64,000 nucleotides of DNA from Streptomyces sp. B21-083 (lineage in GTDB: Bacteria; Actinomycetota; Actinomycetes; Streptomycetales; Streptomycetaceae): positions 4,836,001 through 4,900,000 of the forward strand of contig NZ_JARUND010000001.1 in the NCBI RefSeq assembly GCF_036898825.1, read 5' to 3'. The position numbers and the translations under genes were made by a program. Position 1 is the first letter of the stretch. Every line of letters begins with the position of its first letter. This document shows, piece by piece, positions 26,827-47,403 of the stretch. The notes under the pieces are model-generated. The model searched no databases. It was not told the DNA's origin and saw only the letters and a program-made list of their open reading frames with translations.

Positions 26827-26875
26827 GCGGTGGGTGTGGGATTTGAACCCACGGTGACATCGCTGCCACGACGGC
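26827..26875. repeat. 3'-half remnant of tRNA-Ser(TGA) (att)
   Basis: 49 bp identical to 27730-27778 in the complete tRNA-Ser. It covers the acceptor 3' strand, T arm, variable arm and most of the 3' anticodon stem, then diverges. It marks the distal end of an integration event. Confidence 0.9.
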
Positions 26876-27087
26876 GACCTCTGACCTACAGATTCACGGG
26901 CTCGCTGGCCCACGCATGGCCCACAGGGTGGCTCAGCAGCACCCCGAAGCCCCCAGTTGCGTTGCCGACCAACGATCCTTGGCCACGGTCAATCGGTGCC
27001 CACCTCCGGCCGAACAGGTCGTGTGCTCGCATCCGCACGTCGCCCACAGGACGACTCTGCCGACCTAAGACCACCGCTTGATGATCT

Positions 27088-27546
27088 TTATTGGAGACTT
27101 CGGCGCCGGCCACACCTGGATACGGATCTTCTCAGTGGTCTCGGGGCTTCGTCAGAGTCGACGTCGGCCCGAGCTGCCCGAGCCAAGTTGTGCCGGGACA
27201 CGCGGACGCGGTTCCAGCCGGACGTGACCTCGAACGTAGCCGCATCGGGGGCGTAGTCCGTACAGCCCAGAACCATCAGGCGACCCGACGACACATCTAG
27301 GCCGGCCTCAACGACGTGATCGAATTCCGAGCTGTCACCACTCGGCTCCTTCAGCAAAACGACCATAGTGACGGATACGTTGACATTGACCACCGTGCCG
27401 ATACCCAGCGCAGCCTCTGCAACCGCGAGGTGATCGGCAACGGCCTGGTCCGTCCACGCGTCGCTTAGATCACCGTCCGAATCCGCATCGAATGCGTGGA
27501 TCTGGAAGTAGTCGGCGAAGAGGGTGAGCTCTGTCGTTGTCGTCAT
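27088..27546 (-). CDS. Hypothetical protein of the tRNA-Ser island
   Basis: 152 residues, soluble and acidic in the first half: LFADYFQIHAFDADSDGDLS, WTDQAVADHLAVAEAALGIG, then beta-rich VVNVNVSVTMVVLLKEPS and SGRLMVLGCTDYAPDAATFE with an Arg-rich tail. The alternation suggests a compact alpha/beta fold. I do not recognise the family. It is the only supported gene in the small island, so it may be a cargo or defence-related orphan. Confidence 0.6.
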   Translation of the reverse strand: MTTTTELTLFADYFQIHAFDADSDGDLSDAWTDQAVADHLAVAEAALGIGTVVNVNVSVTMVVLLKEPSGDSSEFDHVVEAGLDVSSGRLMVLGCTDYAPDAATFEVTSGWNRVRVSRHNLARAARADVDSDEAPRPLRRSVSRCGRRRSLQ

Positions 27547-27690
27547 GGCGGCACAGTGCCATGCAGCACTGACAGCCGGAGATGCACCGGCCGTCCACGG
27601 TACGGATCAGACGGCGCCCGTGCCCTCAGCGTGCCCGATCGAGGGGAGCACCGGCGAACGACGGTCGCCCACGGACAGCACGCGGCACGA

Positions 27691-27723
27691 CGGCCCCGGA
27701 CCGATCTACCTGGTCAGGGGCCG
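27691..27723 (-). terminator. Terminator of intact tRNA-Ser(TGA)
   Basis: CGGCCCC / GGGGCCG stem around a 19-nt loop, 9 bp beyond the tRNA 3' end on the minus strand. Its flanks resemble the terminator at 26786-26820 (GGTCAGxGGCCGTTC shared). Confidence 0.7.
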
Positions 27724-27731
27724 TTCGTCTG

Positions 27732-27818
27732 CGGTGGGTGTGGGATTTGAACCCACGGTGACATCGCTGCCACGACGGTTTTCAAGACCGTTCCCTTAGG
27801 CCGCTCGGGCAACCCACC
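27732..27818 (-). tRNA. tRNA-Ser(TGA)
   Basis: 87 nt class II tRNA. Acceptor GGTGGGT pairs with the 3' ACCCACC, the anticodon loop CTTGAAA gives TGA, and there is a long variable arm (GTGGCAGCGATGTCAC) and a GGTTCAAATCC T loop. It is the complete copy, flanked by a 3'-half remnant at 26827 and a 5'-half remnant at 47404. Confidence 0.95.
27779..27818. repeat. attL of the 19.6-kb AICE (5' half of tRNA-Ser)
   Basis: 40 bp identical to 47404-47443: anticodon loop, 5' anticodon stem, D arm and 5' acceptor of tRNA-Ser(TGA). One copy would have come with the element and completes the tRNA. Confidence 0.85.
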
Positions 27819-28007
27819 TGTGCCCCTTCCCACCAGGGATGGACCGGGTACAGCGTACCGGCCTCGCGACGTTCACGGAGGCCGTGGTCCACACGGGGTC
27901 CACTGGCTCTGTTCCGCGCCCCATGCCCACTGGGCCGATCATCAGCCCCCGTTCCGCAGCCCCGGCCGACGCGCGTAAGCATAGAGCTGGGCTGGCCTTG
28001 TCAGCAT

Positions 28008-28033
28008 CCCCAAAGAAAAAGGCCCGCTGGGCC
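28008..28033 (-). terminator. Rho-independent terminator in the AICE left end
   Basis: Read on the minus strand: GGCCC-AGC-GGGCC followed by TTTTTCTTT. This is a rare U-tract terminator for this genome. The gene it serves is not apparent. Confidence 0.6.
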
Positions 28034-28253
28034 CCTCCCCCGACGCCGTTGCCGTCACCTCCGAACGGTGGCGCCAGCTGTCGCAGCAACTACTCGGGCC
28101 GCCAGCCTCAGCGCCACCAATACCGGCATAGCGCGCTCCCCGGCAGCAGCCGAAGGCGAAACCGCCAACCATCGAACGGCGTTGCACACACGCCTCCGTG
28201 TCTACCGAGTTACAACTAGCTACGGGCTCAAGGCGGCTCGCTCCGCTCCCCGC
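28034..28253. other. No gene recognised in AICE left end
   Basis: Between the att site and the ISL3 element (27820-28453) I find no frame with convincing codon use or family similarity. The only structures are the terminator and the long palindrome. Confidence 0.4.
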
Positions 28254-28328
28254 GCGCTGCACGGGCGCCGGCCGGGCCTGCGCTCCTGCCTCCGCCCCGC
28301 TCCAGCCCGGCCGGCGCCCGTGCAGCGC
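28254..28328. repeat. 24-bp perfect inverted repeat with 27-nt loop
   Basis: The left arm 28254-28277 begins GCGCTGCACGGGCGCC, and the right arm 28305-28328 is its exact reverse complement; the loop 28278-28304 is C-rich. It would form a very stable hairpin. Position near the end of an element that uses rolling-circle replication makes a single- or double-strand origin or a strong barrier terminator plausible. Confidence 0.85.
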
Positions 28329-28397
28329 TCAATGCATGCAGCCGCCTGACGCCAGGAAAAGCAACGTCGTGGCTGGGGCGGTCGGCTCCACGGCTTT

Positions 28398-28453
28398 ACG
28401 GAACCACTTTGGCGCGAGCCTCGAAGATCATGGCCCCAATGTCGTGCTTTACC
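28398..28453. repeat. Left half of MITE-like repeat split by ISL3
   Basis: CACTTTGGCGCGAGCCTCGA followed by AGATCATGGCCCC... matches the reverse complement of the end of the repeat at 8780-8931. The repeat resumes at 29938 after the ISL3 element. Confidence 0.75.
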
Positions 28454-29937
28454 GGGTCTTCGAACTTGAGCGGTGTGCGTTTCGGATGCGCTGGCTGACA
28501 GTCACTGCACGTGCTGGGTAGGGGTGTTGGTGGCCCTGGATGCAGGACGCCCGTGGTCCTGGGTGATCATTTCTGTTCTCTACGCAGAATGATCGTCTGG
28601 GAGCCACGGGCTTGGTCAACGATACGACGTTGCTGCTGGACCTCGACGGGGTGTCCGTCATACGGGTCGAGCGGTGCGAGGACGGGGGCCGCCGGGTCCA
28701 CCTGGCCACGGCGGATGCTGCGGCCCGGGCCTGCCCGGCCTGCGGGGTCCTCTCGTCCCGGGTGAAAGGCTCCGCCACCACCCACCCCCGTGATCTCCCT
28801 TATGGCGAGCGTGGGTTGGAGTTCTTCTGGCACAAACGGCGCTGGTTCTGCCGCGAGCCGGCCTGTCCTCGGAAATCGTTCACCGAGCAGATCCCGCAGA
28901 TCCCGGCCGGTGCCCGGCTGACCGGGAGGCTACGGAGTACGGCCGGACGTCGGATACGGGATGGCGGCTCCACAGTCATCCAGGCCGCCCGCGATCTGCG
29001 TCTGTCCTGGCCGACCGTGATGGACGCCTTCAACGCCGTTGCCCACGAGGTCGTCGAAGCGCCGCTGCCCGAGGTCGGGGTGCTGGGCATCGACGAGACC
29101 CGGCGCGGCAGGACCCGCTGGGAGCAGGACCTTGTAACGGGCACGTGGCAGCTGACGCGGGACCGGTGGCACACCGGGTTCGTCGACGCACACGGCTGCG
29201 GCGGGCTGCTCGGCCAGGTCGAGGGCCGCACCGTCGCCGACGTGCTGGCCTGGCTGTCGACCACACCTCTGACCTGGCGCAACAGCATCCGGCACGTGGC
29301 CATCGACATGTCGGCCACCTACCGGGCCGCGATCCGCACCGGCCTGCCGAACGCCGTCGTCGTGGTCGACCACTTCCACATCGTGCAGCTTGCGAACAAG
29401 ATGCTGTCCCTGGTCCGGCGCCGCACCACCGCCGAAATCCGGGGTCGGCGCGGACGCGCCACCGATCCCGAGTGGAAGGCCCGCCGACGACTCCTGCGCA
29501 ATCGCGAGGACCTCACCGACGAGCAGTTCGCGAAGATGTGGAACCCGCTGCTGGCCGAGGGGAAGATCGGCCGAACCCTGCTGACCGCGTGGATCGCCAA
29601 GGAGTCCCTGCGCAACCTTCTCGCCCTGGCCCGCACCGGCGCCGACCGACACCAAGTCGGCCACGCACGATGGAAATTCCTCACCTGGTGCGCAGGCGCC
29701 GACATCCCCGAAGTCCGCACCCTGGCCACCACGGTCGACCGCTGGTGGCCCGAGATCGCTGCGTTCATCGACAGCGGACACAGCAATGCCAAGAGCGAAG
29801 GCATCAACCGCGTGATCAAACTCGTCGCCCGTGCCGCCTTCGGGTTCCGCAACGCCGCCAACCAGCGCCTACGCACACGCTGCGTTACCACCCGCCGAGC
29901 CCGCGGACACCTCCGCACCGCTCAACTTTGAAGACCC
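28454..29937 (+). mobile_element. ISL3-family insertion sequence
   Basis: 1484 bp. Inverted repeats of 22 bp (GGGTCTTC.AA.TTGAGC, then GGTG; 20/22 matching) at 28454-28475 and 29916-29937. Both ends are flanked by the 8-bp target duplication GCTTTACC (28446-28453 and 29938-29945), the length expected for ISL3. It carries one intact transposase gene. Confidence 0.93.
28612..29931 (+). CDS. ISL3-family transposase
   Basis: 439 residues from a TTG start. The N-terminal zinc finger has ACPACGVLSSRVKG and WFCREPACPRKSF; a helix-turn-helix follows (VIQAARDLRLSWPTVMDAF). The DDE catalytic residues are in VLGIDETRRGRTRW, AVVVVDHFHIVQLANKM and the Glu of NAKSEGINRVIKLV. The stop lies within the right inverted repeat, as is common for the family. 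No frameshift is seen, so the element is probably active. Confidence 0.93.
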   Translation: MVNDTTLLLDLDGVSVIRVERCEDGGRRVHLATADAAARACPACGVLSSRVKGSATTHPRDLPYGERGLEFFWHKRRWFCREPACPRKSFTEQIPQIPAGARLTGRLRSTAGRRIRDGGSTVIQAARDLRLSWPTVMDAFNAVAHEVVEAPLPEVGVLGIDETRRGRTRWEQDLVTGTWQLTRDRWHTGFVDAHGCGGLLGQVEGRTVADVLAWLSTTPLTWRNSIRHVAIDMSATYRAAIRTGLPNAVVVVDHFHIVQLANKMLSLVRRRTTAEIRGRRGRATDPEWKARRRLLRNREDLTDEQFAKMWNPLLAEGKIGRTLLTAWIAKESLRNLLALARTGADRHQVGHARWKFLTWCAGADIPEVRTLATTVDRWWPEIAAFIDSGHSNAKSEGINRVIKLVARAAFGFRNAANQRLRTRCVTTRRARGHLRTAQL

Positions 29938-30045
29938 GCTTTACCTGGCAGGTCCACAGACTGCCCGACGCGCCGGAAGCTTACGGGGGCATGATCACTC
30001 ACGCCAAAGCAGCGCCACCCCAAAGCCGCTCCGCCGACCTCACAT
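29938..30045. repeat. Right half of MITE-like repeat split by ISL3
   Basis: Starts with the target duplication GCTTTACC and continues with CTGCCCGACGCGCCGGAAGC and ATGATCACTCACGCCAAAGC, matching 8780-8885 in reverse complement. It ends 24 bp before the stop codon of the Mrr-STAND gene. Confidence 0.75.
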
Positions 30046-30068
30046 TACTCAGCAGCAGCCATCTTGCC

Positions 30069-32459
30069 CTACTCTTCAAGAAGAGTTTGAAAGAGCTCTG
30101 CGATACGACCTGCGTCTCTCGCCGCATTGTCGGATGTAGACCAAGAGTGCGGGCTCTCGGCGTAACTCCGCGCCTCGTCCTCTTCCGCCTCGTACTCATC
30201 GGCCGACTGCCGCCAAGACTCAAGCATTTCTTGGACTGGCGCATCAAATTTTTCCGCAAACTTCTCTACAAAGTTTGCCGCCTCTCTGGACTGCCCGTAG
30301 TCGCTTTCGTAGTGCCAGTGTTCAAACTCGCTATCCGCAAAGCGCATGAAAGCGTCATACATTTCCTCACGCATTTCATCGTTAAAGTCTTGCGGGTTGA
30401 AAATATCAAAAAATAGTTCGACGTCTGCCGAGTCATAGAAATCTTCAAGGGCTCGTTTGAGAAGTCCATCAACAATTTCTGCGGTGCTAAACGAATAATT
30501 CTGCACGGTAAGAGCCAACGTGACGTACGCCTCCACTGAGGCCCTAGGGAGTCTTTCTTGACTTCGGGTTTGCCCCCACGCCTCGGCCTGACACCAAGCC
30601 ACGTCTTCTGGCCCTCCAAACGATATTACGAAATTCATCACCGTGGCAAGCATCTCGGGACGAGGGTCCGAGATGATAAGACGGGTTTTCCCTCTACTTT
30701 TCCGGTCGCCGGATGACCACCGGGCCACTCGCTCTTCGTATAGGTGGCGAATCCCCGAAACCAACCTTGGGGAATTTTCTACCAACACCTCTTTTAGTTC
30801 AGCATAGGAGTTTTCCAGCGGGAGTCTTATAGGGCTATGAACGTCACGGATAAAACGGGTATATTCCAGCTTCTCCCAAGCGACAGAGAGCTGTTTACTC
30901 CGGCGACTCTTTCGATATTTATCGAGACCTGTATAGCGAAGAAGCATCAAGACTTGCTCGATGTCACGGATTTCTCCGAGGGCGGCCTCTGCCATGCCAG
31001 GGGATGCATCCATCTCGTGAAGCAAGAAATCACGACACGACGGGTTGGCTAGCGCGACAGTCTGATGCGCACTTCTTGCTGGATTGGATATTGTGACCCA
31101 AGTTCCATCCAGTACCTTCAGCGCCTGGGTGTACGCATACGGATCTACGGCATGAACGTACTTACGCAAAGCGCTCTCAGTGATCCCTCTAGGAGGGAGA
31201 GTTACGAGAATCGTGAGAATCCTTCGTCCCGTATCCGAGAGGTGATGATAAGAACTGGCCCATAGCTCTGACGGATCGTCCAAGCTTGCACGCAGGTTGG
31301 ACAGCAACACTGAAAGGCTTTTCGAATGGCGCCGAAGAACCTGTTCCAGTATTCGTGGACTGTAGTTCTCGTGGCTAATTACAGAACTATATGCTCGATC
31401 TTCGACCAAGGTACGCCTGTCCGCCTCGGGGAGATCAGAAAAATGTAGATGGTTGTAAAAGATGAGCGCCTTTGTATAGTCAGAATAATCTTCTACATGC
31501 ACCTCAGTAGGAACTAGCGCCGACCGAGCTCGCCTAATCCTGTCACTGCGTTCCTGGGCGTGTCGAAATATCTGCTCCCGCGTTGTCAAGATAAATCGCT
31601 TTGTGCCAGGTGCCGCCCTTCGTACTTTTTCTGCGAATTGCGCAATTCGATGATCTTCGTTTTTGCCTGTAGTCTCGGCCAAATCAGTCTGCCCAAGAAA
31701 ATCATCATAGTAGAAGATCTGAGGGTGATTAGGGTTCCAGAGCTCAAAGCCTTCTTTCACATCTTCGCTGATTTGAACGACTTGCCAATCTTCCTTCCAG
31801 TGAGCCAGGAGGATCATTTCGGCCAAGATGCTTTTTCCGACCCCTGGAGGTCCGGTAATTACACAAATGTTGTGTTCTTTCAAAACCTCCGCCGTTCGAC
31901 CAAAATGATCGGTTATGACATAAAATTTCGATCGACTCTCGATGCTCTCAAGAAGCTCCTCGGTGCGATTCCATAGGCCGCTGTGAATTATTCGAGAAAG
32001 CATCGCCACGGATGTTGTCCAAAGCTTAAAGTGCCTGAGCTCGACCTCCGGGTGGCGCAACAGGAGAGCGTTCAAATCTTCTTGACCCAGAATATCTCCG
32101 GTAGCAACAGGGAGGAACTTCCCAAGCGTGTCCGCCAACTCCTCTTTCAATTCAACCGTCATCGATACGCTGGTAACAAGGACGTAGCGCTTCACTCCTC
32201 GCGCATTAACCCATTTCTGCGCCTCTTTCTTCACTGCACGCCGGAGAGCCGTACGGCCACCCCTGGGGTAATGTTTGCACTGAATCACCACATTGTCGCC
32301 GAACACGGCGCAGCGAAGGTCAACCCCTTTGTCTTTTCCGGGTCCAAAAGACTCAACATGAACGCCAAGCTCTGCACTTAGGATATCCGCCGTGAGAATT
32401 TCGAAATCAACTGGCGACAACGTACTGAAGTCGTATTCAGGCAAAACGTGACCTCCCAC
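30069..32459 (-). CDS. Mrr-like nuclease fused to STAND-type NTPase (probable defence protein)
   Basis: 796 residues. Residues 10-115 are a PD-(D/E)xK Mrr-like endonuclease: LSPVDFEILTADIL, then GVDLR with D47 and VVIQCKHY with K62. A STAND-like NTPase follows: Walker A TGPPGVGKS (202-210), Walker B IFYYDDFLG (~248-256) and sensor KRFILTTREQIF (~287-298), closest in my judgement to the novel-STAND-3 type. The C-terminal ~400 residues are helical without a recognised repeat and probably sense a trigger. It is much AT-richer than the flanks, evidence of recent acquisition. By analogy with other nuclease-STAND proteins it would cut DNA after detecting phage. A helical membrane protein gene lies 172 bp upstream on the same strand. 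Confidence 0.85.
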   Translation of the reverse strand: MGGHVLPEYDFSTLSPVDFEILTADILSAELGVHVESFGPGKDKGVDLRCAVFGDNVVIQCKHYPRGGRTALRRAVKKEAQKWVNARGVKRYVLVTSVSMTVELKEELADTLGKFLPVATGDILGQEDLNALLLRHPEVELRHFKLWTTSVAMLSRIIHSGLWNRTEELLESIESRSKFYVITDHFGRTAEVLKEHNICVITGPPGVGKSILAEMILLAHWKEDWQVVQISEDVKEGFELWNPNHPQIFYYDDFLGQTDLAETTGKNEDHRIAQFAEKVRRAAPGTKRFILTTREQIFRHAQERSDRIRRARSALVPTEVHVEDYSDYTKALIFYNHLHFSDLPEADRRTLVEDRAYSSVISHENYSPRILEQVLRRHSKSLSVLLSNLRASLDDPSELWASSYHHLSDTGRRILTILVTLPPRGITESALRKYVHAVDPYAYTQALKVLDGTWVTISNPARSAHQTVALANPSCRDFLLHEMDASPGMAEAALGEIRDIEQVLMLLRYTGLDKYRKSRRSKQLSVAWEKLEYTRFIRDVHSPIRLPLENSYAELKEVLVENSPRLVSGIRHLYEERVARWSSGDRKSRGKTRLIISDPRPEMLATVMNFVISFGGPEDVAWCQAEAWGQTRSQERLPRASVEAYVTLALTVQNYSFSTAEIVDGLLKRALEDFYDSADVELFFDIFNPQDFNDEMREEMYDAFMRFADSEFEHWHYESDYGQSREAANFVEKFAEKFDAPVQEMLESWRQSADEYEAEEDEARSYAESPHSWSTSDNAARDAGRIAELFQTLLEE

Positions 32460-32631
32460 CGGTCCGTGTATTTGTCGGCGTCCTTCAGTAGGCTAGTTAT
32501 TTCCGTGCTACAAACATGGTTCCAGTTCGCAGAGCGCTGCGCAGGAAGTTGCAGGAATCAGGGGAAGATGCCAACGACGAGACCCGCACTGGTTCGCCGC
32601 CCTCCAGGAACGGTCCGCTGCTGAATGACTG

Positions 32632-33231
32632 TCACGACCCGAGAGGCGCGTCGTCGGGGGTGAAGTCAGGGTCACCGTCGTCTAAGGCCTCGCGTCGCAG
32701 ACGGTCGTAGTCCCGACGCTCGGCTTCCTTCCGTCGGTCGTAAGTCTCCTGAAACTGCTCGACGTTGCGGCTCACCTTCGGTAGCTCTTCCTGGCGTAGG
32801 TATTCGAGCAGCACGCTGATCATGTCCTCGACCATCAAGCGCACCCAACGGACACGCAGCGGATGCCGGGGGCCGGCATACCTGTATGCGCGAGCCAGGT
32901 TGTAGGGCTTCTGGATTCGGTCGGGCAGAGCCTGACCAGGGATGCGACCAATGGCGACAGCAGCCCTGGTGAGCGACGCCGTAGCGTGCTCCTCCCACGG
33001 ATCCGGACTGATCGGCCCTGTCGACACCGTCACTGTCTCCAGGTATTCACGTAGCTGGAGGAGTGTCGTCAGGGCCTCTTCACCTGCCAGTCTGCCGATC
33101 TCGTATCTGCGTACTTCGCGAGCGTCCTCCGACTGTTTCCGGAGAGTGAGCCACGTCCCTGCCAGTGAGGCGCCTGCACCCAAAACCGCGCCACCGAAAC
33201 CCACGAGGGCCGTCGCTATGTCCACGTTCAT
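32632..33231 (-). CDS. Membrane-anchored helical protein upstream of the Mrr-STAND gene
   Basis: 199 residues from ATG 33231; a longer frame opens at 33306 but the 33231 start puts the TM at the N-terminus. One TM at ~6-26 (ALVGFGGAVLGAGASLAGTW) is followed by LTLRKQSEDAREVRRYEIGR and long helices ending in an acidic tail (DDGDPDFTPDDAPLGS). It has the same layout as the products at 9464-9961 and 12721-13227. It lies on the same strand as the nuclease-NTPase gene and could be its partner, but the 172-bp gap leaves room for a separate promoter. Function unknown. Confidence 0.65.
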   Translation of the reverse strand: MNVDIATALVGFGGAVLGAGASLAGTWLTLRKQSEDAREVRRYEIGRLAGEEALTTLLQLREYLETVTVSTGPISPDPWEEHATASLTRAAVAIGRIPGQALPDRIQKPYNLARAYRYAGPRHPLRVRWVRLMVEDMISVLLEYLRQEELPKVSRNVEQFQETYDRRKEAERRDYDRLRREALDDGDPDFTPDDAPLGS

Positions 33232-33502
33232 GGGCCTCTTATTCAGGGATGGAAGAGAGCAGGTGACCGGCAGTCGTGCCAGACGCATGCCAGGTCGTGC
33301 GGGCAACCCCGGGGAACGGCGGGGAGTACGCTGCCGGCCAGTCCGGCCCGGTTAGCAGCTCCGCCGCTGGTCAGCCCGCGAATCACCTGTCAAAGCCCCA
33401 AGCTTCCCAAGCTGAGGCTTCGACGAACATCCTGCGCCGTCGCTCTTTGGATTCTTTCTGGCGTTCGGTCACCCCAACCGGAGCCCGGGCTACCTCACAG
33501 GA

Positions 33503-34922
33503 CATCTCGTCAGCATGACGCGAAAAGCATCGAACTGGCGCCCCCCTCCGGAGCCGTCTGCGATCCTGGAACCCGATCGAGAGGGGCCGAAGGCATGGAG
33601 TGGAAGACCCACGGTGAGCGCCAGATCTACACGAACAAGTGGGTGAACCTGTGTCTGGTCGACGTCCAGCAGCCTGATGGGCGCAGGTGGGAGTACCACG
33701 TCGTGCGCCTCCGGCACCTGGCCGTGGCGGCCGTGGTCAACGACCGCCAGGAGGTGCTGATGATGTGGCGGCACCGCTTCATCACGGACTCCTGGGCCTG
33801 GGAGTTGCCCATGGGCCTGGTCGAGGAAGGTGAGTCCCCGGAGGAGGCGGCGGCCCGTGAGGTCCTGGAGGAGACGGGCTGGCGCCCTGGTCCCATCAAG
33901 CCCCTGATCTACGCCGAGCCGGCCAACGGGATCACCGACTCGCAGCATCACGTCTTCCGTGCGGACGGCGCGACTTACGACGGGCCGCCCACGGAGAAGA
34001 ACGAGTCCGACCGCATCGAGTGGATACCCCTCAGCGAGGTGCGCGGGATGATCGACCGCCGCGAGGTCGTCAGCAGCGGATCCCTCGTCGGCCTCCTGTA
34101 CGTGCTCATGGATGAAGCGATCCGCTGATCGGTGGGAGGAGTTCCCGTAGCCGTGCCTCGAAGGCCAGTGCTACGGGCTCCCGCCTGTGCGGGGCCAACT
34201 GCTCGTAGAACTCGCGGAGATGGCCCGACACTCGCTCGGAGGACACCGCCGACGCGGGCTCCAGAGCTTGCGTGGCGGTGTGGCACGCCTGGGCAAGCTT
34301 GCCCTGATCCAGCTGCGTACGAGCAAGCCAGAACGTGTGAAACGCCCGGCCGCGTTGGTTGGTGCTGTTCTCCCGCCGCAGAGCATCCGCGATCAAGGGC
34401 TCAGCGGTCGCTGCCTCCCCGAGTCGGCCGTGAGCAATGCCGGTGTCGACTATGAGCTTCAGCTCGTCGAAGTAGGTCACCCATGACGGGTCGGGGTCGT
34501 TCGCCTGGATCTGCTCGAAGTGGCGGTGCGCTTCCCCGATTGCCCGGTGGGTGGAGTCCCGGTTGCCGAGGGTGGCGTGGGCGAAGGCTTCCCGCATGGA
34601 CAGCATCGACATGACGCGGGGCGTGGTGCCGAGAGCTGGGCGGGCCTGGTCCTGGGCGGCGGTCACGAGTGCCAAGGAGTCCCCGGGCTTGTCCTGGTAC
34701 GTGGCCTGCAAGCTCATGCAGGCCAGGACGTTGGCCATGAACTGGCGGTCGTCGATTTCCTTGGCCAGTTGCAGGGCCTCGGTGAAGTACGCGCGGGCCT
34801 GGTTGTACTGGCGGGCGTCGAAGTAGGTCCAGCCGGTGAGGCGCGCCAACTCGGCCGCGATTCCGTACAGGCCGTTCTGGATGGACGGCGGTCGGCTCTC
34901 CTTCAACAGTCCCACGACATGC
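33503..34922. repeat. Duplicated Nudix/regulator module (pair of 10415-11834)
   Basis: About 1.42 kb nearly identical to 10415-11834 and in the same orientation. The offset is constant (23088 bp) across the Nudix gene and restored after the compensating 4-bp indels in the regulator. Two direct copies 23 kb apart are a substrate for homologous recombination that would delete the parS/tRNA interval. Confidence 0.9.
33595..34128 (+). CDS. Nudix hydrolase, AICE copy
   Basis: 177 residues; 175 identical to the relic copy (Arg31 and Val for Ile near residue 160 differ). The Nudix box at 74-96 is complete. GAGAGGGG lies 9-16 nt upstream of the ATG. The last 23 nt of the gene also encode the last codons of the convergent regulator, so the two mRNAs are complementary at their 3' ends. 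Conservation of this pair in two elements points to a functional module, perhaps with the regulator sensing or controlling a nucleotide made or removed by the Nudix enzyme. That role is inference. Confidence 0.92.
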   Translation: MEWKTHGERQIYTNKWVNLCLVDVQQPDGRRWEYHVVRLRHLAVAAVVNDRQEVLMMWRHRFITDSWAWELPMGLVEEGESPEEAAAREVLEETGWRPGPIKPLIYAEPANGITDSQHHVFRADGATYDGPPTEKNESDRIEWIPLSEVRGMIDRREVVSSGSLVGLLYVLMDEAIR

Positions 34923-35446
34923 CGGAGCTGACCGACGATGGCCGGCCTCAGAGCTTCGCCGCCGTGCTGGTCGTCCCGTCGCCAGTAGTCCTCGATGGAG
35001 GATCGGAACGCATCAAGTGTGGCGCTGCTGAGGCTCGTTCGTGTGGCCAACGCCAGGATGCTGTCTACGTCCGGTCCCGGCAGAGACGCGGGTGTCTGCG
35101 GCTCTGGCTCCGGCGCTTGCGGTGCCTCGCGCTGGGTGACCACGAGAGCCTGGGGCGTCTCCCAGGGGCGACGAGCAAGCCCGAGCATGTGCCCTGGGAT
35201 GCGCAAGCCGTCCGCGATGCGTTCGACGACGTCCATGTGCAGCAACTGGCGTCGCCCGGCGATCACTTCACCGACTCGGCTGGGTGTCAGCTCGCATCGC
35301 CTGGCGATCTTCGACGGATAGATGCCCGCCCTGGTCTTGACCAGCCGGAAGACTTTGCCGAAGTCCCGTACCCGGCACGCGTTGATCATCTCAGGATCGG
35401 TGAGCAGCCTGGCAGGAAGTTCCTGCGGCCGGTCGGCGTCGGGCAT
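34106..35446 (-). CDS. HTH (XRE-like) regulator with TPR-like C-terminus
   Basis: 446 residues from ATG 35446 (GGGTGGGAG upstream); a 469-residue frame starts at 35515 inside the operator. The HTH lies at ~30-80: FGKVFRLVKTRAGIYPSKIA, ELTPSRVGEVIAGRRQL, ERIADGLRIPGHMLGL. A ~50-residue Pro/Gln/Glu linker leads to a helical-repeat domain (~170-440) with TPR-like units such as TGWTYFDARQYNQARAYFTE and DRQFMANVLACMSLQATYQD. This is the common Streptomyces XRE-TPR layout, where the TPR part often binds a peptide or small molecule. A palindrome lies ~60 bp before the start and suggests autoregulation. Confidence 0.9.
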   Translation of the reverse strand: MPDADRPQELPARLLTDPEMINACRVRDFGKVFRLVKTRAGIYPSKIARRCELTPSRVGEVIAGRRQLLHMDVVERIADGLRIPGHMLGLARRPWETPQALVVTQREAPQAPEPEPQTPASLPGPDVDSILALATRTSLSSATLDAFRSSIEDYWRRDDQHGGEALRPAIVGQLRHVVGLLKESRPPSIQNGLYGIAAELARLTGWTYFDARQYNQARAYFTEALQLAKEIDDRQFMANVLACMSLQATYQDKPGDSLALVTAAQDQARPALGTTPRVMSMLSMREAFAHATLGNRDSTHRAIGEAHRHFEQIQANDPDPSWVTYFDELKLIVDTGIAHGRLGEAATAEPLIADALRRENSTNQRGRAFHTFWLARTQLDQGKLAQACHTATQALEPASAVSSERVSGHLREFYEQLAPHRREPVALAFEARLRELLPPISGSLHP

Positions 35447-35507
35447 CGGGCAAGCTCCCACCCTGCGAGGGCTACGCAACGTCGCTGATTCTCTACTTGC
35501 CGCGATG

Positions 35508-35524
35508 TTACCCAAGTTGGGTAA
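35508..35524. promoter_or_regulatory. Palindromic operator between regulator and divergent small genes
   Basis: TTACCCAAGTTGGGTAA: perfect 8-bp arms around a central G. It sits in the divergent promoter region of the HTH-TPR regulator and the 35573 gene, with a further half-like TACCCAG near 35550. It is most simply the binding site of the HTH protein. Confidence 0.65.
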
Positions 35525-35572
35525 TCAGCCTGACCTTTTGGCGAGGCTACCCAGTTCGCGATGCTCGTGTGC

Positions 35573-35803
35573 ATGGCGAGCAAACAGCAGACCAGACCAG
35601 GCATCGGTGAACTGGCCAAAGACAGCGTCAGGGACCTCATCGGCGTCGTCATGGGCGAGTGCGGGGGCCGTGTGCAGATGCGGCCGATCCGTGGCGGCCT
35701 GGAGTGGGACGCCATCCCGGACGACGTGGTGGCGCTCAGCGCGCGGGAGGAACTGAGCGCACGTCTGACCATCAAGAACGGCAACAGTCTGGGCGGGTTG
35801 TGA
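35573..35803 (+). CDS. Small conserved-type AICE protein, unknown
   Basis: 76 residues from ATG 35573 (an earlier in-frame ATG at 35561 is possible). Sequence KQQTRPGIGELAKDSVRDLI then GVVMGECGGRVQMRPIRGGLEWD and a short C-terminus; one alpha/beta domain, no membrane segment. It is divergent from the HTH-TPR regulator and shares the palindromic operator. Its stop overlaps the next start (TGATG), indicating coupling. I do not recognise the family. Confidence 0.65.
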   Translation: MASKQQTRPGIGELAKDSVRDLIGVVMGECGGRVQMRPIRGGLEWDAIPDDVVALSAREELSARLTIKNGNSLGGL

Positions 35804-35976
35804 TGCGCGCCATCGGCCGGTACGCCGGAGTCCTCTTCATCATCTGCATCAGCGGTTCGTGCGGCCTGGTGATCGGCGCGCCCTCGGTATCCGCCAGTAG
35901 ACCGGCCGCCCCGGACGGGTGCCAGTTCACGGCTCCCCCGTCCCCGTCCGGGGCCGGCCTCCAACCTGCCCCCTGA
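35803..35976 (+). CDS. Small secreted or membrane-tethered peptide
   Basis: 57 residues. The start overlaps the previous stop. A basic N-terminus and hydrophobic segment (YAGVLFIICISGSCGLVIGA) form a signal peptide or anchor, with a Pro/Ser-rich tail and one further Cys (PDGCQFTAPPSPSG). It is probably co-translated with the 35573 product. Function unknown. Confidence 0.5.
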   Translation: MRAIGRYAGVLFIICISGSCGLVIGAPSVSASRPAAPDGCQFTAPPSPSGAGLQPAP

Positions 35977-36052
35977 TCGTCTGCAAGAGCCCAGCTCGGC
36001 GATCAAGGCGGCATGCCCGTGCCACGCACCACCTCACACCGGGAGATTGCAT

Positions 36053-36496
36053 ATGACGGCAACGGCGAACGATCAGCGGACCGGCCGCGCGGTGGCTGGT
36101 GAGGAAGTATTCGAGAGCCTCGCCCACTTCGTGGTCATCCACAACGGGCAGTCGGCCGAGCGCGCGGAGCGGATCGCGGACCAGGCGGTGGCGTTCCTGG
36201 TCACGGCGGCCACCGCCACCGTTCCGATGGTCCCGTCCGATGACGTGGACCTGGGCCTCCACGCGCTCATCCTGCACACGAAGGAGTACGCCGCGCTGTG
36301 CGAGCGGTACGCGGGCCGCTACCTGCACCACAACCCGAAGCGGGGTGGAGGCGCCCGCGACCCTGAGATGGTCGCCGCCTCCGCACGCGCTATGAAGGCG
36401 GCCGGGTTCATGGTCTTCGACGACCTGTGGACCGTGAACGGCGTGAATCTCGCGCAGTGCGATTCGGACTGCGGCCGACCGTACGGTCAGGCCTAG
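36053..36496 (+). CDS. Hypothetical AICE protein with His/Tyr-rich helical region
   Basis: 147 residues from ATG 36053 (GGGAG 8 nt upstream). Helical N-terminus (EEVFESLAHFVVIHNGQSAE), central VDLGLHALILHTKEYAALCE then RYAGRYLHHNPKRGGGARDP, a pattern resembling plant-type glycine-rich-domain (GRDP-like) proteins with conserved His/Tyr/Cys, and a C-terminal SDCGRP. Function unknown. It precedes the kinase-like gene with a small hairpin between them. Confidence 0.65.
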   Translation: MTATANDQRTGRAVAGEEVFESLAHFVVIHNGQSAERAERIADQAVAFLVTAATATVPMVPSDDVDLGLHALILHTKEYAALCERYAGRYLHHNPKRGGGARDPEMVAASARAMKAAGFMVFDDLWTVNGVNLAQCDSDCGRPYGQA

Positions 36497-36514
36497 CCAC
36501 ACGACAACTGCGAC

Positions 36515-36543
36515 GCGGCCGGCCTGAATTCGTGGTCGGCCGC
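36515..36543 (+). terminator. Hairpin between 36496 and the kinase-like gene
   Basis: GCGGCCG / CGGCCGC, 7-bp stem with a 15-nt loop just after the stop codon. It may be a terminator or an attenuating structure before the TTG start at 36574. Confidence 0.5.
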
Positions 36544-36573
36544 GCTCGCCTGAACCCTGGAAGGGATGAGACG

Positions 36574-37410
36574 TTGCCGGGCTCAACCCCTGAACTGCCG
36601 ATCGTGGTGCTCGACGCACTCATGCCCACGACGCAGCGCATGGTCATCAACCGTCGAGGCTCCATAGTCTGGGAGGTGGAGAGCCACCGGGGCCACTACG
36701 CCGTGAAGATCGGCTATCCGGTCGAGGCTACGGCCGACTGGCCTGCCCAGCCCTGGACCGCGCTCGCGCCCGCACGCGAGGGCGCCGTTCTGCTTCGCCT
36801 CGGCGTCGAGCAGAGCGCGTACGGCGAATGGGAACACGGCACCTGGAACTACCAGCCGTGGCACGAAGGACCGGACCTGTACCGGCTGTGGGAGCGCTGC
36901 CGCACGAAGGACTCGCCCATCGCACCGGACACCAGCGAAGCACTGGAATGCGCCGAAGCGCTCGCCGACCTCCACGCCAAAGGCTGGGCACACGGCGATG
37001 TACAGCCCGCCCACTTCATCATCGGCCCGGAACGAACACACCTCATCGACCTCGCCCTCGCCCACGGCGGCCACGTACCCGAGGGACACGACTTCCCCTT
37101 CCGCGGCTGCCTCGTCCACTACGAAGCACCAGAGATCGCACGCAGCGTCCTCGACACCGGAGAAGCCGAGCCGACACCAGAAGCCGACATCTACGCGCTC
37201 GGGGCCTCGCTGCTCATCTCCGCCACGGGCTGGCGGGCGGTCGAGTACCCGGACGACGCTCCGCGACCTGTGCAGCGAGAGGCAGTTGCCAACGGCCGAC
37301 GTCGGCCCGTGAAAGTGCCCGGTGAGCTAGGCGAATTGGTCGACGCGATACTCAGCCACACACCGGGGGATCGGCCCACCATCTTCGAGGTGGTCAAAGC
37401 CCTGACCTGA
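36574..37410 (+). CDS. Protein-kinase-like fold protein
   Basis: 278 residues from TTG 36574 (GGAAGGGATG upstream). Kinase landmarks: a beta-3 Lys in HYAVKIGYPVE, an alpha-C region REGAVLLRLGVEQSAYG, the catalytic loop WAHGDVQPAHFII (HGD in place of HRD), a degenerate DFG in HLIDLALAHGG, and APEIARSVLDTGEAEPTPEA then DIYALGASLLISATGWRAVE typical of Ser/Thr kinases. The DFG change (DLA) makes activity uncertain; phosphotransferases of the aminoglycoside type are an alternative. It is unusual inside an AICE and may tune transfer or act as cargo. Confidence 0.75.
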   Translation: MPGSTPELPIVVLDALMPTTQRMVINRRGSIVWEVESHRGHYAVKIGYPVEATADWPAQPWTALAPAREGAVLLRLGVEQSAYGEWEHGTWNYQPWHEGPDLYRLWERCRTKDSPIAPDTSEALECAEALADLHAKGWAHGDVQPAHFIIGPERTHLIDLALAHGGHVPEGHDFPFRGCLVHYEAPEIARSVLDTGEAEPTPEADIYALGASLLISATGWRAVEYPDDAPRPVQREAVANGRRRPVKVPGELGELVDAILSHTPGDRPTIFEVVKALT

Positions 37411-37464
37411 TCCCCAAAACCCTGCCCACCTCGCGTCAGCAGTGCGCAGACGCCAACAACAAGA

Positions 37465-37510
37465 GACCGGACCACCCCTCAGCCTGGACAGCATTCCGGG
37501 TGGTCCGGTC
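37465..37510 (+). terminator. Strong hairpin terminator after the kinase-like gene
   Basis: 13-bp perfect stem GACCGGACCACCC / GGGTGGTCCGGTC with a 20-nt loop, 55 bp after the stop. Confidence 0.8.
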
Positions 37511-38127
37511 GTGGAATCCCTGATCAGGACCCCGGTGCCGATGGTACCGGGGCGGTCGGCGTGCTCGGATTCGGGCGCGGCGACAACCCCCGACAGCTGT
37601 TGTTGAGTTAGAGAGGACGGCGGTTGAAGGCGGCCATTGGAAGCACGGTTCTGACGTGCACCACCGAAAGTGAGCCAAGACGGCGAGTGCGCCGAACGAG
37701 CACCCGTCACGTATGTCTCCAGCAACCCCGTACTGGCATCAGCCACGCTGCCCGGTTTCGAAACGACGGCCACCCGGACGGCGGGGTCGTGCGCGCTCGG
37801 GCTCGGCCTGGTCCTGGTGCTGGTCGTACTCCTGGTGCTCGGGCTGGGCGAGTTGCTTCCTGGTCTGGCTGTCTGCCTTGGCGGTGCTGCGCGCTGAGTG
37901 GACGGGGGCCGCCGCAGCGGTGGCGGAGACAGGGAGCGGCGGCGGCCCCTGGCCGCCAGCGCGCGCGGGCCGCCGTAGGCGGTCCGCCTTGATCCAGTAA
38001 AGAAACTCTGAACAGCACCGATGGGCAGCGGTCGATCGACCTGGGAGAGGCACGGATGCCGTGGGCATGCCCCGACGGTTCGAGCAAGTGCGGCACGGAA
38101 CGACGGCACGGCGGCAAGCGGGGAGCG
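37511..38127. other. About 600 bp without a supported gene
   Basis: Frames exist on both strands (for example a plus-strand 75-codon frame at 37670-37897 with one hydrophobic stretch LVLVLVVLLVLGLGELL) but codon position bias is mixed and none has a convincing start. A small membrane peptide is possible. Confidence 0.35.
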
Positions 38128-38355
38128 ATGACCGAGCACATACCGGACAACGAAATGGGGTCGACCAGCATTCAGGTCGGGGACACGGATCAAGTAGTCG
38201 CGTTGATCGAGGAGATGCGGGCCATGGTCGTTCGTCTCAGCAGAGAGACCAGGGAGTTGCGAGAGGAAGTGGCCCAGCTCAGGACTACGGCTTCGGCTGC
38301 TGAGCTGCCTTCAGTTCCTCTACCTCGCGCCGCAGTTCCTGATGATCAACGCTGA
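38128..38355 (+). CDS. Small coiled-coil protein overlapping the GntR gene
   Basis: 75 residues from ATG 38128 (GGGGAG 6 nt upstream). The middle is a coiled coil (VVALIEEMRAMVVRLSRETR then ELREEVAQLR). It is convergent with the GntR regulator and overlaps its last 71 nt. The C-terminus of that regulator is also a short coiled coil (ALSVDHQELRREVEELKAAQ), so the two could pair. Coding status is uncertain because of the overlap. Confidence 0.4.
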   Translation: MTEHIPDNEMGSTSIQVGDTDQVVALIEEMRAMVVRLSRETRELREEVAQLRTTASAAELPSVPLPRAAVPDDQR

Positions 38356-38776
38356 GAGCACGGATCTCGTCACGTAGTGCGGTGAGTACTTCGGCAAGGG
38401 TGGTCCCGGCGACTGCGGCAGCTTCGGTGTCGTCGGGCCCGCCCTCCCCCTGGTCGGCCTGGCCGTGCCCCTCGCCCCTGTTCGCCAAGTACCAAGCCGG
38501 AGCGGTGTAGTCCGCCGAGAGCTCCCCGCCGGCACCGTGGTCCGCGACGAAGCTGCCCCGACCATGGATCGTGTAGATCAGCCCCTCGTCCCGCAGGACG
38601 TTGAGCGCAGACCTCGCGGTCATGTTGGCCACACCGAAGCGTTCCTGTAGCTCGCGGATGGACGGCATCTGCTCGCCCGGCTTGATCCGCCCATGCAAGA
38701 TGTCGCGCCGAATCTCGTCGGCGGCGTGCTGATACGGCGGCCGACGGTCCTGCTTGCTCTCTGGCGCGGGGCTCAT
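38285..38776 (-). CDS. GntR-family repressor of AICE transfer genes (KorSA-like)
   Basis: 163 residues from ATG 38776; an in-frame ATG at 38824 lies inside the operator palindrome and is less likely. GntR winged helix at ~12-75: YQHAADEIRRDILHGRIKPG, MPSIRELQERFGVANMTARS, GLIYTIHGRGSFV. There is no effector domain of normal size; an acidic Gly/Asp linker and a short coiled coil end the protein. pSAM2-type elements use such a repressor (KorSA) to keep replication and transfer off. It is divergent from the transfer operon across a 25-bp palindrome. Confidence 0.88.
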   Translation of the reverse strand: MSPAPESKQDRRPPYQHAADEIRRDILHGRIKPGEQMPSIRELQERFGVANMTARSALNVLRDEGLIYTIHGRGSFVADHGAGGELSADYTAPAWYLANRGEGHGQADQGEGGPDDTEAAAVAGTTLAEVLTALRDEIRALSVDHQELRREVEELKAAQQPKP

Positions 38777-38816
38777 GGCCCAAGAGTAGCGATTCTTAGC
38801 ACCCCTAGCACACCCC

Positions 38817-38841
38817 ACTGACATAGGTGGCCTATGTCAGT
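38817..38841. promoter_or_regulatory. Operator palindrome between the GntR gene and the transfer operon
   Basis: ACTGACATAGG-TGG-CCTATGTCAGT, 11-bp perfect arms. It is followed by CCTAGCT / GCTAGGT motifs and a TTGACA at 38866-38871, a likely -35 for the gene at 38948 (candidate -10 TTCAAT at 38889, 17-bp spacing). Binding here would control both directions. Confidence 0.75.
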
Positions 38842-38947
38842 TGATACCTAGCTCACCCGATTCACTTGACACTGCTAGGTCTGCTATGTTCAATGGAGAG
38901 CACGCCCCACCGCCCCGGTGGAGCGCAATCGAGAGGAATCAACTCCC

Positions 38948-39298
38948 ATGGCACGCATCCGTGTTGGCCTGCTCCCCACCTCCTCGTTCATGGTCGGCAC
39001 CCTGCCGGTGCCGAAGTACGCGGACCAGGAGAAGACGCAGTTCGCCACCGACCGTGAGACCGGCGCGAAGCTCTACACGATCACCCTCTTCTTCATGGAG
39101 GAGGACCGCGCCGAGGCTCTGAAGATCACCGTTCCGGAAACCGGTCTGCCCAACGGGCTCCGGCCTGGTGTCCCGGTCATGCCGGTGGAGCTGTTCGCCA
39201 CTCCGTGGGCGCGCATCTTCAACGGCTCGCTCTCGGACGGCATCGCCTACCGCGCGAGCCGACTCGACCTGGTGGCCCCGGCCGCTGAGGCGGCGTGA
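38948..39298 (+). CDS. SCO3933-family regulatory protein
   Basis: 116 residues from ATG 38948. Soluble alpha/beta protein: IRVGLLPTSSFMVGTLPVPK, YADQEKTQFATDRETGAKLY, ITLFFMEEDRAEALKITVPE, then VELFATPWARIFNG. The family is found next to the translocase gene in many Streptomyces integrative elements and is named regulatory, without a known mechanism. First gene after the GntR-controlled promoter. It overlaps the next start by 4 nt (GTGA). Confidence 0.75.
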   Translation: MARIRVGLLPTSSFMVGTLPVPKYADQEKTQFATDRETGAKLYTITLFFMEEDRAEALKITVPETGLPNGLRPGVPVMPVELFATPWARIFNGSLSDGIAYRASRLDLVAPAAEAA

Positions 39299-39507
39299 GC
39301 GGCACCGCTTTCCGGTTCGGCGCTGAGCGCAGCTACCCGCTGCCTCACGCCGGGCCGGATGCCCAGGTCACCGAGTCTCTCGTGACCTCGGTGGCGGCCG
39401 TGCTCGTCGCCTACGGCTTCCCCCGCCTCGACACGTCGGCGGATCGGGCGGCCCTTGAATCGGCCCTCACGGCCTTCCTCTACAACCCGTTGGAGAGTCA
39501 CAGATGA
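39295..39507 (+). CDS. Small AICE protein between SCO3933-like and translocase genes
   Basis: 70 residues from GTG 39295. Helical (QVTESLVTSVAAVLVAYGFP, TSADRAALESALTAFLYNPL), soluble. It overlaps its upstream neighbour by 4 nt (GTGA) and its downstream neighbour by 4 nt (ATGA), so it is certainly translated within the operon. Function unknown. Confidence 0.75.
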   Translation: MSGTAFRFGAERSYPLPHAGPDAQVTESLVTSVAAVLVAYGFPRLDTSADRAALESALTAFLYNPLESHR

Positions 39508-40910
39508 AGGATCCGAACGCACCGGCGCAAGGGATCTTCGGTCACGTCCCGCTCGTCGTCGCCCTGGTGCTCGCCGTGGTCGTCGGATGGGCGGTCTGGT
39601 GGATAGTCCGCTACGTTCGCGCCGATTCCATGACCCGGCAGTCCATACGGCAGGCCATACGCGTGCGGTGGGGCTGGAAGCGGCTCGCACCGATGCTCAA
39701 GCTGTCGGCCACGGACAAGACCCCGACCGCGCTGGCGTCGCTGGCGAACACGAACGGCAAGCCCATCAAGCCGCGTGTCCTCATCCCTGCCCTGAAGGTG
39801 AAGCACGACGCGTATGGGGTGATCGCGCGGGCACAGTGCCTGCCTGGCATCGGGCTTACGCAGTTCCAGAAGGCGGCGCCGCACCTCGCGGACGCCTGGC
39901 GCTGCACGCGGGTGGCGGTCACTCAGTACACGCCTGGGCAGATCCTCATCCGGGGTGTGCGACTGGATCCGTTGAAGTTCCCCACCGAGCACCACCCCAC
40001 GGGTGACGCACCGGAGGAGACAGCCCAGTGGGATCTGGGCTTGGACGAGTACGCGCAACCCGTGTCCGTGAACCTCACGCAGGTGCCCGGCGTGACCGTG
40101 GCCGGCCTTCCCGGTTTCGGCAAGACCAGCCTGATCAACCGGCTTCTCTCCGACTGGGCACCCTCTCCCGCAGTCCAGTTCGCCTGCGCGGACGGCAAGG
40201 TATCGGCTGCGTACGAAGGTGACTACGCCGATTGGGTCCAACGCATGTTTGCCTTCGTGGGCGATGACCTGGAAGAGGCGAACAAGCTGTTCCGGCAGCT
40301 TGTGGAACTGCGCCGCGCGCGGTCGGCATCGGTGCGCCAGGTACTCGGGGTGAAGTCCATGTGGGACGTCGGCCCCTCCGAGAACTGGCCCCTGGTCGTA
40401 CTGATCGTCGACGAAGCGCACACCTACTTCCGCGACCACAAGGGCAGCGACCAGCAGACGAAGAAGCTGGCCGCGCTCGCCGCCGAGAACGCCCGGCTCG
40501 TGGAAGACCTGGTGAAGAAGGGCCGGTCCGTGGGACTGCTCGTCATCCTCACCACTCAGAAGTCCACCGGCGACGCGATACCCACCTTCATCCGCGACGT
40601 GTGCCCCGTGGGCCTGAGCTTCGCCCAGAAGACCGCCGAAGCCGCCGTGGCCGCGCTCGGCGAAGAGATCCGGGAATGGCCGGACGCCAACCCCATCAAC
40701 CTCCAAGACCCCACCTACGTCGGCGTCGCGTCGATGAACCACCAGTCACAACCCGGCTTCGTCCGTATCCGTACGCCCTACGTGCCCGACGCGGAAGCGG
40801 CTCTCATTGCCGAACAGACAGCGAACCTCACCGCCGACCCGGGCGCCCTCCTGGAAGCCTTCCTCGGCCTTCGCCTGGCGGACGTGGACCTGACCAAGCT
40901 CGACGTCTGA
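39504..40910 (+). CDS. FtsK/SpoIIIE-type conjugal translocase (TraB/TraSA-like)
   Basis: 468 residues. One N-terminal TM (VPLVVALVLAVVVGWAVWWI, ~13-33). The motor domain has Walker A VAGLPGFGKTSLINRLLSDW (~200-219) and Walker B WPLVVLIVDEAHTYF (~295-309), plus VGLLVILTTQKSTGDAIP as the arginine-finger/sensor region. In Streptomyces elements a single such hexameric translocase moves double-stranded DNA between hyphae and is sufficient for transfer. Length and placement match TraSA of pSAM2. Confidence 0.92.
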   Translation: MKDPNAPAQGIFGHVPLVVALVLAVVVGWAVWWIVRYVRADSMTRQSIRQAIRVRWGWKRLAPMLKLSATDKTPTALASLANTNGKPIKPRVLIPALKVKHDAYGVIARAQCLPGIGLTQFQKAAPHLADAWRCTRVAVTQYTPGQILIRGVRLDPLKFPTEHHPTGDAPEETAQWDLGLDEYAQPVSVNLTQVPGVTVAGLPGFGKTSLINRLLSDWAPSPAVQFACADGKVSAAYEGDYADWVQRMFAFVGDDLEEANKLFRQLVELRRARSASVRQVLGVKSMWDVGPSENWPLVVLIVDEAHTYFRDHKGSDQQTKKLAALAAENARLVEDLVKKGRSVGLLVILTTQKSTGDAIPTFIRDVCPVGLSFAQKTAEAAVAALGEEIREWPDANPINLQDPTYVGVASMNHQSQPGFVRIRTPYVPDAEAALIAEQTANLTADPGALLEAFLGLRLADVDLTKLDV

Positions 40911-40967
40911 GCCGCAGACCTTCAGCGTCAACACGTTCCCGACGCCCAGGAGAGGAGGTGAACTCCC

Positions 40968-41672
40968 ATGACAACAGAGGACCGGATCACTCAACGCACC
41001 ATCACCGCCGTCATGATCGTCATTGCCGCGCTGGCGTTCGTCTTCTCCTTCGGCAACGTCTGGTCGCTCGCCCTGCGCCTCGGCGTCCCCGGCCCGATCG
41101 CACCGCTCATCGCTCCGATGGTGGACCTATCCGTGGTCGGCCTCCTGGTCGCCCTGCGCTATCTCTCCCTGCGCGGCCTGCCCACCGAACAGATGACGGC
41201 CGCCACCCGTCTCATGCACTTCTCCGGACTGCTGACCCTGGCTCTCAACGTCGCAGAACCGATCGTCGCCGGACACTACGGCCGCGCCGCCGTTGACGCG
41301 GTGGCCCCGCTGCTCCTACTCGGCTGGGGCGCCGTCGGCCCGCAACTCCTCCGCGCCTTCCACACCGTTGCGCACCCCGCCGTACCGGCTTCGCTGCCGA
41401 ACAAGATCGAGCCGGAGCCTGAGACAGCTTCTGACGTATCCCACCCTGTTGCGGTGCCTCTCACCGTTCCGGCCCCGGCACCGGTCGCTCCTCGCACGGC
41501 CCCGGCTCCCATTTCGCCTGCGGTCAAGGTGCCCGAGCCGCTGCTGACCGAAGCACGCTCCATCGCCACGGCCCACCACACCGAGCACGCCGAACCGATC
41601 ACAGCGGCCCAGCTCAAGACGCGACTCGGCATCGGCCTGCCCATGGCCACCGCGCTTCACGCCGCTCTGTAA
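40968..41672 (+). CDS. DUF2637 membrane protein (Spd-type spread protein)
   Basis: 234 residues, AGGAGAGGAGG upstream. Four hydrophobic segments fill the N-terminal 130 residues (TAVMIVIAALAFVFSFGNVW, PLIAPMVDLSVVGLLVALRY, FSGLLTLALNVAEPIVAGHY, DAVAPLLLLGWGAVGPQLLR). A Pro/Ala linker (~150-185) and a C-terminal helix-turn-helix-like end (ITAAQLKTRLGIGLPMATAL) follow. DUF2637 proteins accompany AICE and plasmid transfer genes and are linked to spreading of the element inside the recipient mycelium. Confidence 0.85.
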   Translation: MTTEDRITQRTITAVMIVIAALAFVFSFGNVWSLALRLGVPGPIAPLIAPMVDLSVVGLLVALRYLSLRGLPTEQMTAATRLMHFSGLLTLALNVAEPIVAGHYGRAAVDAVAPLLLLGWGAVGPQLLRAFHTVAHPAVPASLPNKIEPEPETASDVSHPVAVPLTVPAPAPVAPRTAPAPISPAVKVPEPLLTEARSIATAHHTEHAEPITAAQLKTRLGIGLPMATALHAAL

Positions 41673-47334: not shown

Positions 47335-47403
47335 ACCAGCACGTCTATGACCTGCAACGGCGGTGCGATCCGCACCCTCAGGAACGCTGTCACGCTCTCG
47401 CGT

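Follow-up and report, generated by a model that had tools for sequence, protein, structure and literature searches.

Does the AT-rich gene at 30069-32444 on the minus strand of this 64,000-nucleotide stretch of Streptomyces sp. B21-083 DNA (the window, to which all coordinates refer) encode a phage defence system, as proposed in an initial annotation made from the sequence, and if so, of what kind? We consider it likely that the product is a single-gene, Avs-like immune receptor of the Mrr_cat-nSTAND3 family (PDC-S73 in PADLOC), carried as cargo by a Streptomyces element resembling the actinomycete integrative and conjugative elements (AICEs) and acting by the mechanism proposed below. The gene is real and well conserved, a defence candidate from a catalogued family and ordinary in kind, with a single unexplained feature that runs through the family, its C-terminal tail.

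30069..32444, minus strand: Mrr_cat-nSTAND3 protein, 791 amino acids from the probable TTG start (Pfam, PADLOC, inspection of the start, base composition, 791-residue database record)

The open reading frame (ORF) described initially is present at 30069-32459 on the minus strand and comprises 796 codons when counted from a GTG at 32459. Since GGGAGGT lies just upstream of a TTG at 32444, from which the product has 791 residues, and since the database record from the same genome is also 791 residues long, the TTG is probably the start. Residue numbers follow the 796-residue reading unless stated; in the shorter numbering D47, K62 and K209 become D42, K57 and K204, and F790 becomes F785. The guanine-plus-cytosine (GC) fraction is 0.51 in the gene, compared with 0.67 in the rest of the element (computed without the genes for a 199-residue and an OLD-family protein, see below) and 0.70-0.71 in the flanks, bearing out the AT-richness noticed earlier. 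This low value agrees with the published tendency of rare actinobacterial defence systems to be AT-rich relative to their replicon (PMC10482375).

The conserved half of the protein consists of three parts:

31974..32438, minus strand: Mrr-like nuclease module, residues 8-162, with D47, Q60 and K62 (Pfam Mrr_cat, 71/71 alignment rows, match to a TIR protein of pNGR234a)
31440..31922, minus strand: nSTAND3 nucleoside triphosphatase (NTPase), residues 180-340, with Walker A at 203-210, Walker B at 249-253 and LTTRE at 291-295 (Pfam PF20720, conservation)
30930..31439, minus strand: conserved, mainly helical region, residues 341-510 (conservation, AlphaFold2 secondary structure)

Pfam places Mrr_cat at residues 13-108 (E 6.7e-9, 36.3 bits against a cut-off of 21) and nSTAND3 (PF20720) at residues 180-340 (E 6.4e-46, 156.3 bits against a gathering score of 27.2); no NCBIfam model scored above its cut-off, and no housekeeping family matched in Pfam, NCBIfam or PADLOC. 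To gauge conservation we aligned the protein with 70 complete relatives from a genome scan. In all 71 rows the alignment retains D47, Q60 and K62 of the nuclease, K209 of Walker A, D252 and D253 of Walker B, and R294, and T292 and T293 are kept in 99% and 94% of the rows; other constant positions include E20, G41, D43, G45, E79, Y92, G203, G206, G208, N336, H337, P368 and R369. Such conservation of the catalytic residues argues that the nuclease and the NTPase are under strong constraint, and both are presumably active enzymes. The PD-(D/E)xK Mrr-like N-terminus with D47 and K62, and the Walker A, Walker B and LTTRE sensor motifs, had thus been read correctly.

An Mrr_cat N-terminus would also suit a restriction enzyme of the modification-dependent kind (type IV, Mrr-like), with the NTPase as its motor and the C-terminal half as a reader of modified DNA, and the names under which relatives are deposited often contain 'restriction endonuclease'. 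We regard this as unlikely, because the NTPase is of the STAND type by its strong PF20720 match, the Pfam scan matched no DNA-reader domain, and the first structural matches found with Foldseek are Avs4, CED-4 and AVAST5.

The remainder of the protein is organized differently:

30180..30929, minus strand: fast-evolving all-helical domain, residues 511-760, presumed sensor (AlphaFold2, conservation)
30105..30179, minus strand: acidic linker, residues 761-785, probably disordered (model confidence, aspartate and glutamate content)
30081..30104, minus strand: C-terminal tail motif [I/L]xx[L/M]FxxL, here IAELFQTL, residues 786-793 (66 of 70 relatives)

Conservation drops sharply near residue 510, and among the 275 positions from 511 to 785 there is none at which one residue occupies 85% or more of the rows. 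The complete relatives, which had been pre-filtered to 735-815 residues, nonetheless have a median length of 770 (10-90% range, 762-784), and this near-constant length combined with fast evolution suggests that the C-terminal half contains one fast-evolving domain common to the family rather than a set of swapped domains. AlphaFold2 predicts an all-helical domain for residues 511-760, with ten-residue confidence means of 73-97 except for one block at 57, and a separate model of the 302 C-terminal residues has a predicted local distance difference test (pLDDT) score of 86. That model by itself gave no clear fold match in the PDB, and the domain as sole search query retrieved 10 proteins, itself among them. 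The initial annotation had left some 400 C-terminal residues unassigned; the conserved part reaches to about residue 510 rather than 400, and the sensor, though indeed unassigned, can now be described as a helical domain of near-constant length that is found throughout the family and followed by a conserved tail.

In the full-length model pLDDT falls below 50 at residues 764-774, and in 67 proteins the 25 residues preceding the tail motif contain 29% aspartate and glutamate versus 15% elsewhere, pointing to a linker that is probably disordered. The tail containing IAELFQTL is modelled as a helix. The pattern [ILVM]xx[LIMV]Fxx[LIMVF] occurs within the last 30 residues of 66 of the 70 complete relatives, the other four all carrying near-variants, whereas 1,000 shuffles of the tails produced a mean of 0.26 matches and a maximum of 3; as a second control, it was found in 16 of 1,068 neighbouring ORFs and in none of 120 control ORFs. 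A slightly looser pattern is present in 113 of 120 aligned database sequences, among them the protein itself, and at 65 of 73 loci (viral loci included). Within the motif, 97% of the 71 rows share F790 and 92% share L793, which offers a concrete handle, a single residue (F790, or F785 from the TTG), for probing whether the tail controls activation.

Because the tail is fixed while the adjoining domain varies, its partner is expected to be conserved as well: this could be the protein's own conserved half or a protein of the host. In the latter case the tail would bind a conserved protein of the host, such as a factor for replication or transcription; displacement or alteration of that host protein by a phage would trigger the receptor, and the variable domain would do no more than tune or shield. 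Conservation of the tail, but not of the adjoining domain, in relatives from several phyla fits such a partner, as does its position on an acidic, probably disordered tether. We nevertheless find this reading rather doubtful: no host partner has been identified, although none was searched for; the motif is without the glutamine that sliding-clamp-binding motifs contain; and a conserved partner is also available within the protein itself, at residues 1-510. The mean confidence of the tail is 83 when the C-terminal half is folded alone and 86 in the full protein, a difference that decides nothing between the two partners. As an internal partner needs no extra component, we favour it with modest confidence, and the probable role of the tail is that of a latch or a docking peptide.

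Taken together, these features lead us to propose that in the resting state the STAND NTPase is closed, and that the variable helical domain (511-760) would recognize a phage-made molecule. Binding of ATP would then cause the protein to oligomerize, so that the Mrr-type nucleases at the N-termini would meet and cleave DNA, and either the phage or the infected cell would be stopped. The LFxxL tail and its acidic linker would serve as a tethered peptide, most likely as an intramolecular latch or as an oligomer contact on the conserved half. A bolder idea, which we advance tentatively, is that LFxxL on an acidic tether is a control element common to the Mrr-nSTAND3 receptors across the bacteria: it would be a universal latch, released by the phage trigger, or else a bait for one conserved host protein under guard. 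No description of such a latch or bait principle of activation for bacterial STAND immunity was found in the literature searched.

How widespread is the family, and does it keep the company of defence genes? A homology search scored 7,997 candidates and recovered 668 homologues; among the 120 listed, the named ones are mostly from Streptomyces, and other taxa include Kitasatospora, Couchioplanes, Lentzea, Kocuria, Microbacterium, Tumebacillus, Paenibacillus, Cohnella, Nitrincola and a Methanothrix metagenome-assembled genome. A scan of one genome per species yielded 155 relatives; the 80 retained come, to judge by record titles, from actinobacteria, proteobacteria, Planctomycetes, Bacteroidota and other groups. 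The family is therefore widespread on both counts, and its distribution is patchy: of 297 genomes in the taxonomic family, 19 contain a relative (14 of them with a match of at least 2e-50 in strength), and of 392 genomes in the genus, 26 do when weak matches are counted. Matches were also obtained in 31 of 72,556 plasmid records, 23 of the 31 typed as conjugative and 8 limited to the N-terminal module, and in 2 of 50,697 phages.

We compared 121 ORFs immediately adjacent to family members (100-1,199 residues, from 77 loci, out of 361 ORFs within three genes) with 120 control ORFs from 20 hand-picked regions on long contigs in 20 of the 28 genomes with family members; ORFs were called by a longest-ORF rule, and some are spurious. 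At 1e-10 the neighbours matched 233 PADLOC models and the controls 3, so that the neighbourhood is rich in defence models. Neither this result nor the lack of a housekeeping match bears out the refutation foreseen in the initial annotation. Because PADLOC models overlap, this corresponds to at least 8 distinct ORFs among the 121 neighbours and at most 3 among the 120 controls. Among the 25 models listed, mad3 leads with 8 ORFs, followed by Old, LmuB, AriA and GajA models with 4 each. The Pfam domains found in the neighbours, for which no Pfam control exists, are SMC-like (7), AAA_15 (5), phage integrase (4), OLD TOPRIM (3) and resolvase (2). A recurrent partner gene did not emerge, no cluster of neighbours occurring directly beside the gene at more than 2 of 82 loci with these crude ORF calls.

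The initial annotation had included the gene upstream in the locus:

32632..33231, minus strand: 199-residue protein, with a single hydrophobic stretch seen by eye at its N-terminal end, considered to lie outside the system (co-occurrence, homology search, GC)

It does lie on the same strand, 172 bp upstream of the nuclease-STAND ORF, as would suit a system of two genes, the second encoding a protein with one transmembrane segment. Relatives of the 199-residue protein, sought in whole genomes with weak matches included, occur in 22 of the 392 genomes of the genus, and those of the nuclease in 26, counted in a draw of equal size with the same genome handles where listed; the two coincide in one genome, that of the window, where 1.5 would be expected by chance. 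The small protein had no match at the locus of a 69%-identical relative of the nuclease or at the other family loci checked, some of them with only 1.5-kb flanks, and its gene has a GC fraction of 0.63 versus 0.51. We therefore reject it as a partner, a two-gene system being highly improbable. The 199-residue protein has only 4 database homologues; 5 of the 22 genomes contain more than one match, overlapping in one genome, and in several genomes of the genus relatives lie no more than a few kb apart (G604:C272:11473-14386, also G571, G024 and G636). These relatives form a family of their own.

The placement of the gene inside an AICE proved right in substance. A chromosomal tRNA-Ser(tga) is split near its anticodon, with the 3' half at about 26827-26874 and the 5' half at 47401-47449. 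In one relative (L214) no more than about 0.25 kb separates a prim-pol gene, an intact tRNA-Ser and htrA from each other, and two more (L211 and L212) have the same order with about 0.7 kb between the tRNA and prim-pol; two others deviate, the stretch examined in L208 containing no tRNA and L210 no prim-pol. The split tRNA gene and the uninterrupted order in relatives show that the intervening 20.5 kb is an insertion, with the following features:

26875..47400: AICE-like insertion of about 20.5 kb that interrupts tRNA-Ser(tga) and brings an intact tRNA-Ser of its own, at 27731-27818 on the minus strand (split tRNA, relatives)
39504-40910, plus strand: FtsK/TraB-like protein (weak: FtsK_SpoIIIE 22 bits versus 24, TraB E 1.8e-4, both below cut-offs)
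40968-41672, plus strand: DUF2637 protein (above cut-off)
41826-43289, plus strand: RepSA-like protein (E 7.5e-157, 522.8 bits, below the equivalog cut-off of 700)
43486-44883, plus strand: putative tyrosine recombinase (by eye; no Pfam or NCBIfam match)
44998..47184, plus strand: OLD-family ATPase-TOPRIM nuclease, 728 amino acids, GC 0.55 (PADLOC Old, E 1.7e-92)

We define the backbone block as 39504..44883 on the plus strand; further backbone genes encode an SCO3933-family and a GntR-type regulator. Integration in a tRNA gene together with a RepSA-like replication gene, as in pSAM2, marks the insertion as AICE-like. The complete tRNA-Ser copy lies about 0.9 kb inside the left end, and an 89-nt repeat is found at 26786-26874 and 27690-27778, which could also mean two elements in tandem. 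The OLD-family gene, between the putative integrase and the right end, is a second defence-like cargo. A NUDIX protein at 33595-34128 (plus strand) weakly matches PADLOC PDC-S07 (E 1.8e-10); pSAM2 carries a NUDIX exclusion gene, pif, and by analogy the two may be of the same kind. A protein-kinase-like ORF at 36427-37410 (plus strand) has weak matches to the MAD6 and PD-T4-6 kinases.

The closest relative with context is the 69%-identical protein of Streptomyces sp. SM11 (L031), whose gene adjoins GntR-UTRA, FtsK/SpoIIIE and Prim-Pol genes. Identity between the Prim-Pol there and the chromosomal Prim-Pol beside the window element is no more than 28%, and the same cargo therefore seems to be carried by a differently built element. 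The AICE-like setting here, shared with an OLD-family second cargo, and the different set of element genes beside this relative suggest a way in which such receptors pass from one Streptomyces to another. Directly downstream of the nuclease-STAND gene in the window is an ISL3-family transposase gene (28612-29931). At the SM11 locus the DNA after the nuclease gene resembles window positions 28228-28456 (85%) and 8783-8929 (86%); since it continues with DNA like 28228-28456, an ISL3-family transposon has probably inserted downstream of the gene here. The stretch at 28228-28456 includes a 24-nt inverted repeat without mismatches and has the look of a dispersed repeat.

How does the protein compare with known systems? 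The initial annotation had suggested a distinct type, a suggestion that the existing PADLOC entry does not support: PDC-S73, a single-gene phage defence candidate not named in the literature searched, matches residues 8-565 (E 3.6e-126, 420.8 bits) over profile positions 3-568 of 752, the end of the profile being unmatched. Both its single-gene character, in keeping with the lack of a recurrent partner, and its defence-rich neighbourhood are shared by the protein here. Mrr_cat-STAND proteins with C-terminal repeats, mentioned for P4-satellite hotspots (PMC9122126), likewise speak against a distinct type.

The general kind had been recognized correctly as that of the Avs group. With the full-length model as query, Foldseek returned Avs4 (8dgf) as the best PDB match (E 5.2e-9), Avs4 again second and an AVAST5 filament fourth, with CED-4 chains among the first eight; VIA ranks ordinary AAA+ ATPases level with Avs4 for this protein. 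Avs4, which carries an Mrr-like nuclease, has a chain of 1534 residues, about twice the length, as expected from the remark that the protein is far shorter than classic Avs proteins, and there is no rigid overall match (root-mean-square deviation 22.2, TM-score 0.16/0.09). PADLOC contains Avs models, and none of the six models matched at E up to 1 bears the name Avs. Closer in length is Avs5 (SIR2-nSTAND3; 9nc9 and 9jap), with chains of 769 and 833 residues and nSTAND3 by Pfam in both, although its effector is SIR2-like rather than an Mrr nuclease; Avs5 immunity requires Walker A, Walker B, the arginine finger and the C-terminal helices, according to a paper in which 'Mrr' is not mentioned (PMC12931631).

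The nuclease module itself recurs in TIR proteins (PADLOC Aga_TIR-PNTD1-PNTD2), such as WP_010875053 of pNGR234a (L251:3998-5917), which is 39% identical over residues 8-162 and keeps the D, Q and K. There the Mrr-like module is followed by TIR instead of STAND, within one protein that may therefore hold two effectors, and the LFxxL tail is absent; the Argonaute link exists in the PADLOC name only, Pfam having found no domain in the next gene. Being common to these TIR proteins, the nuclease module is a reusable part, which in the present family, held in PADLOC only as a candidate, is joined to a compact STAND switch in a protein about half as long as Avs4.

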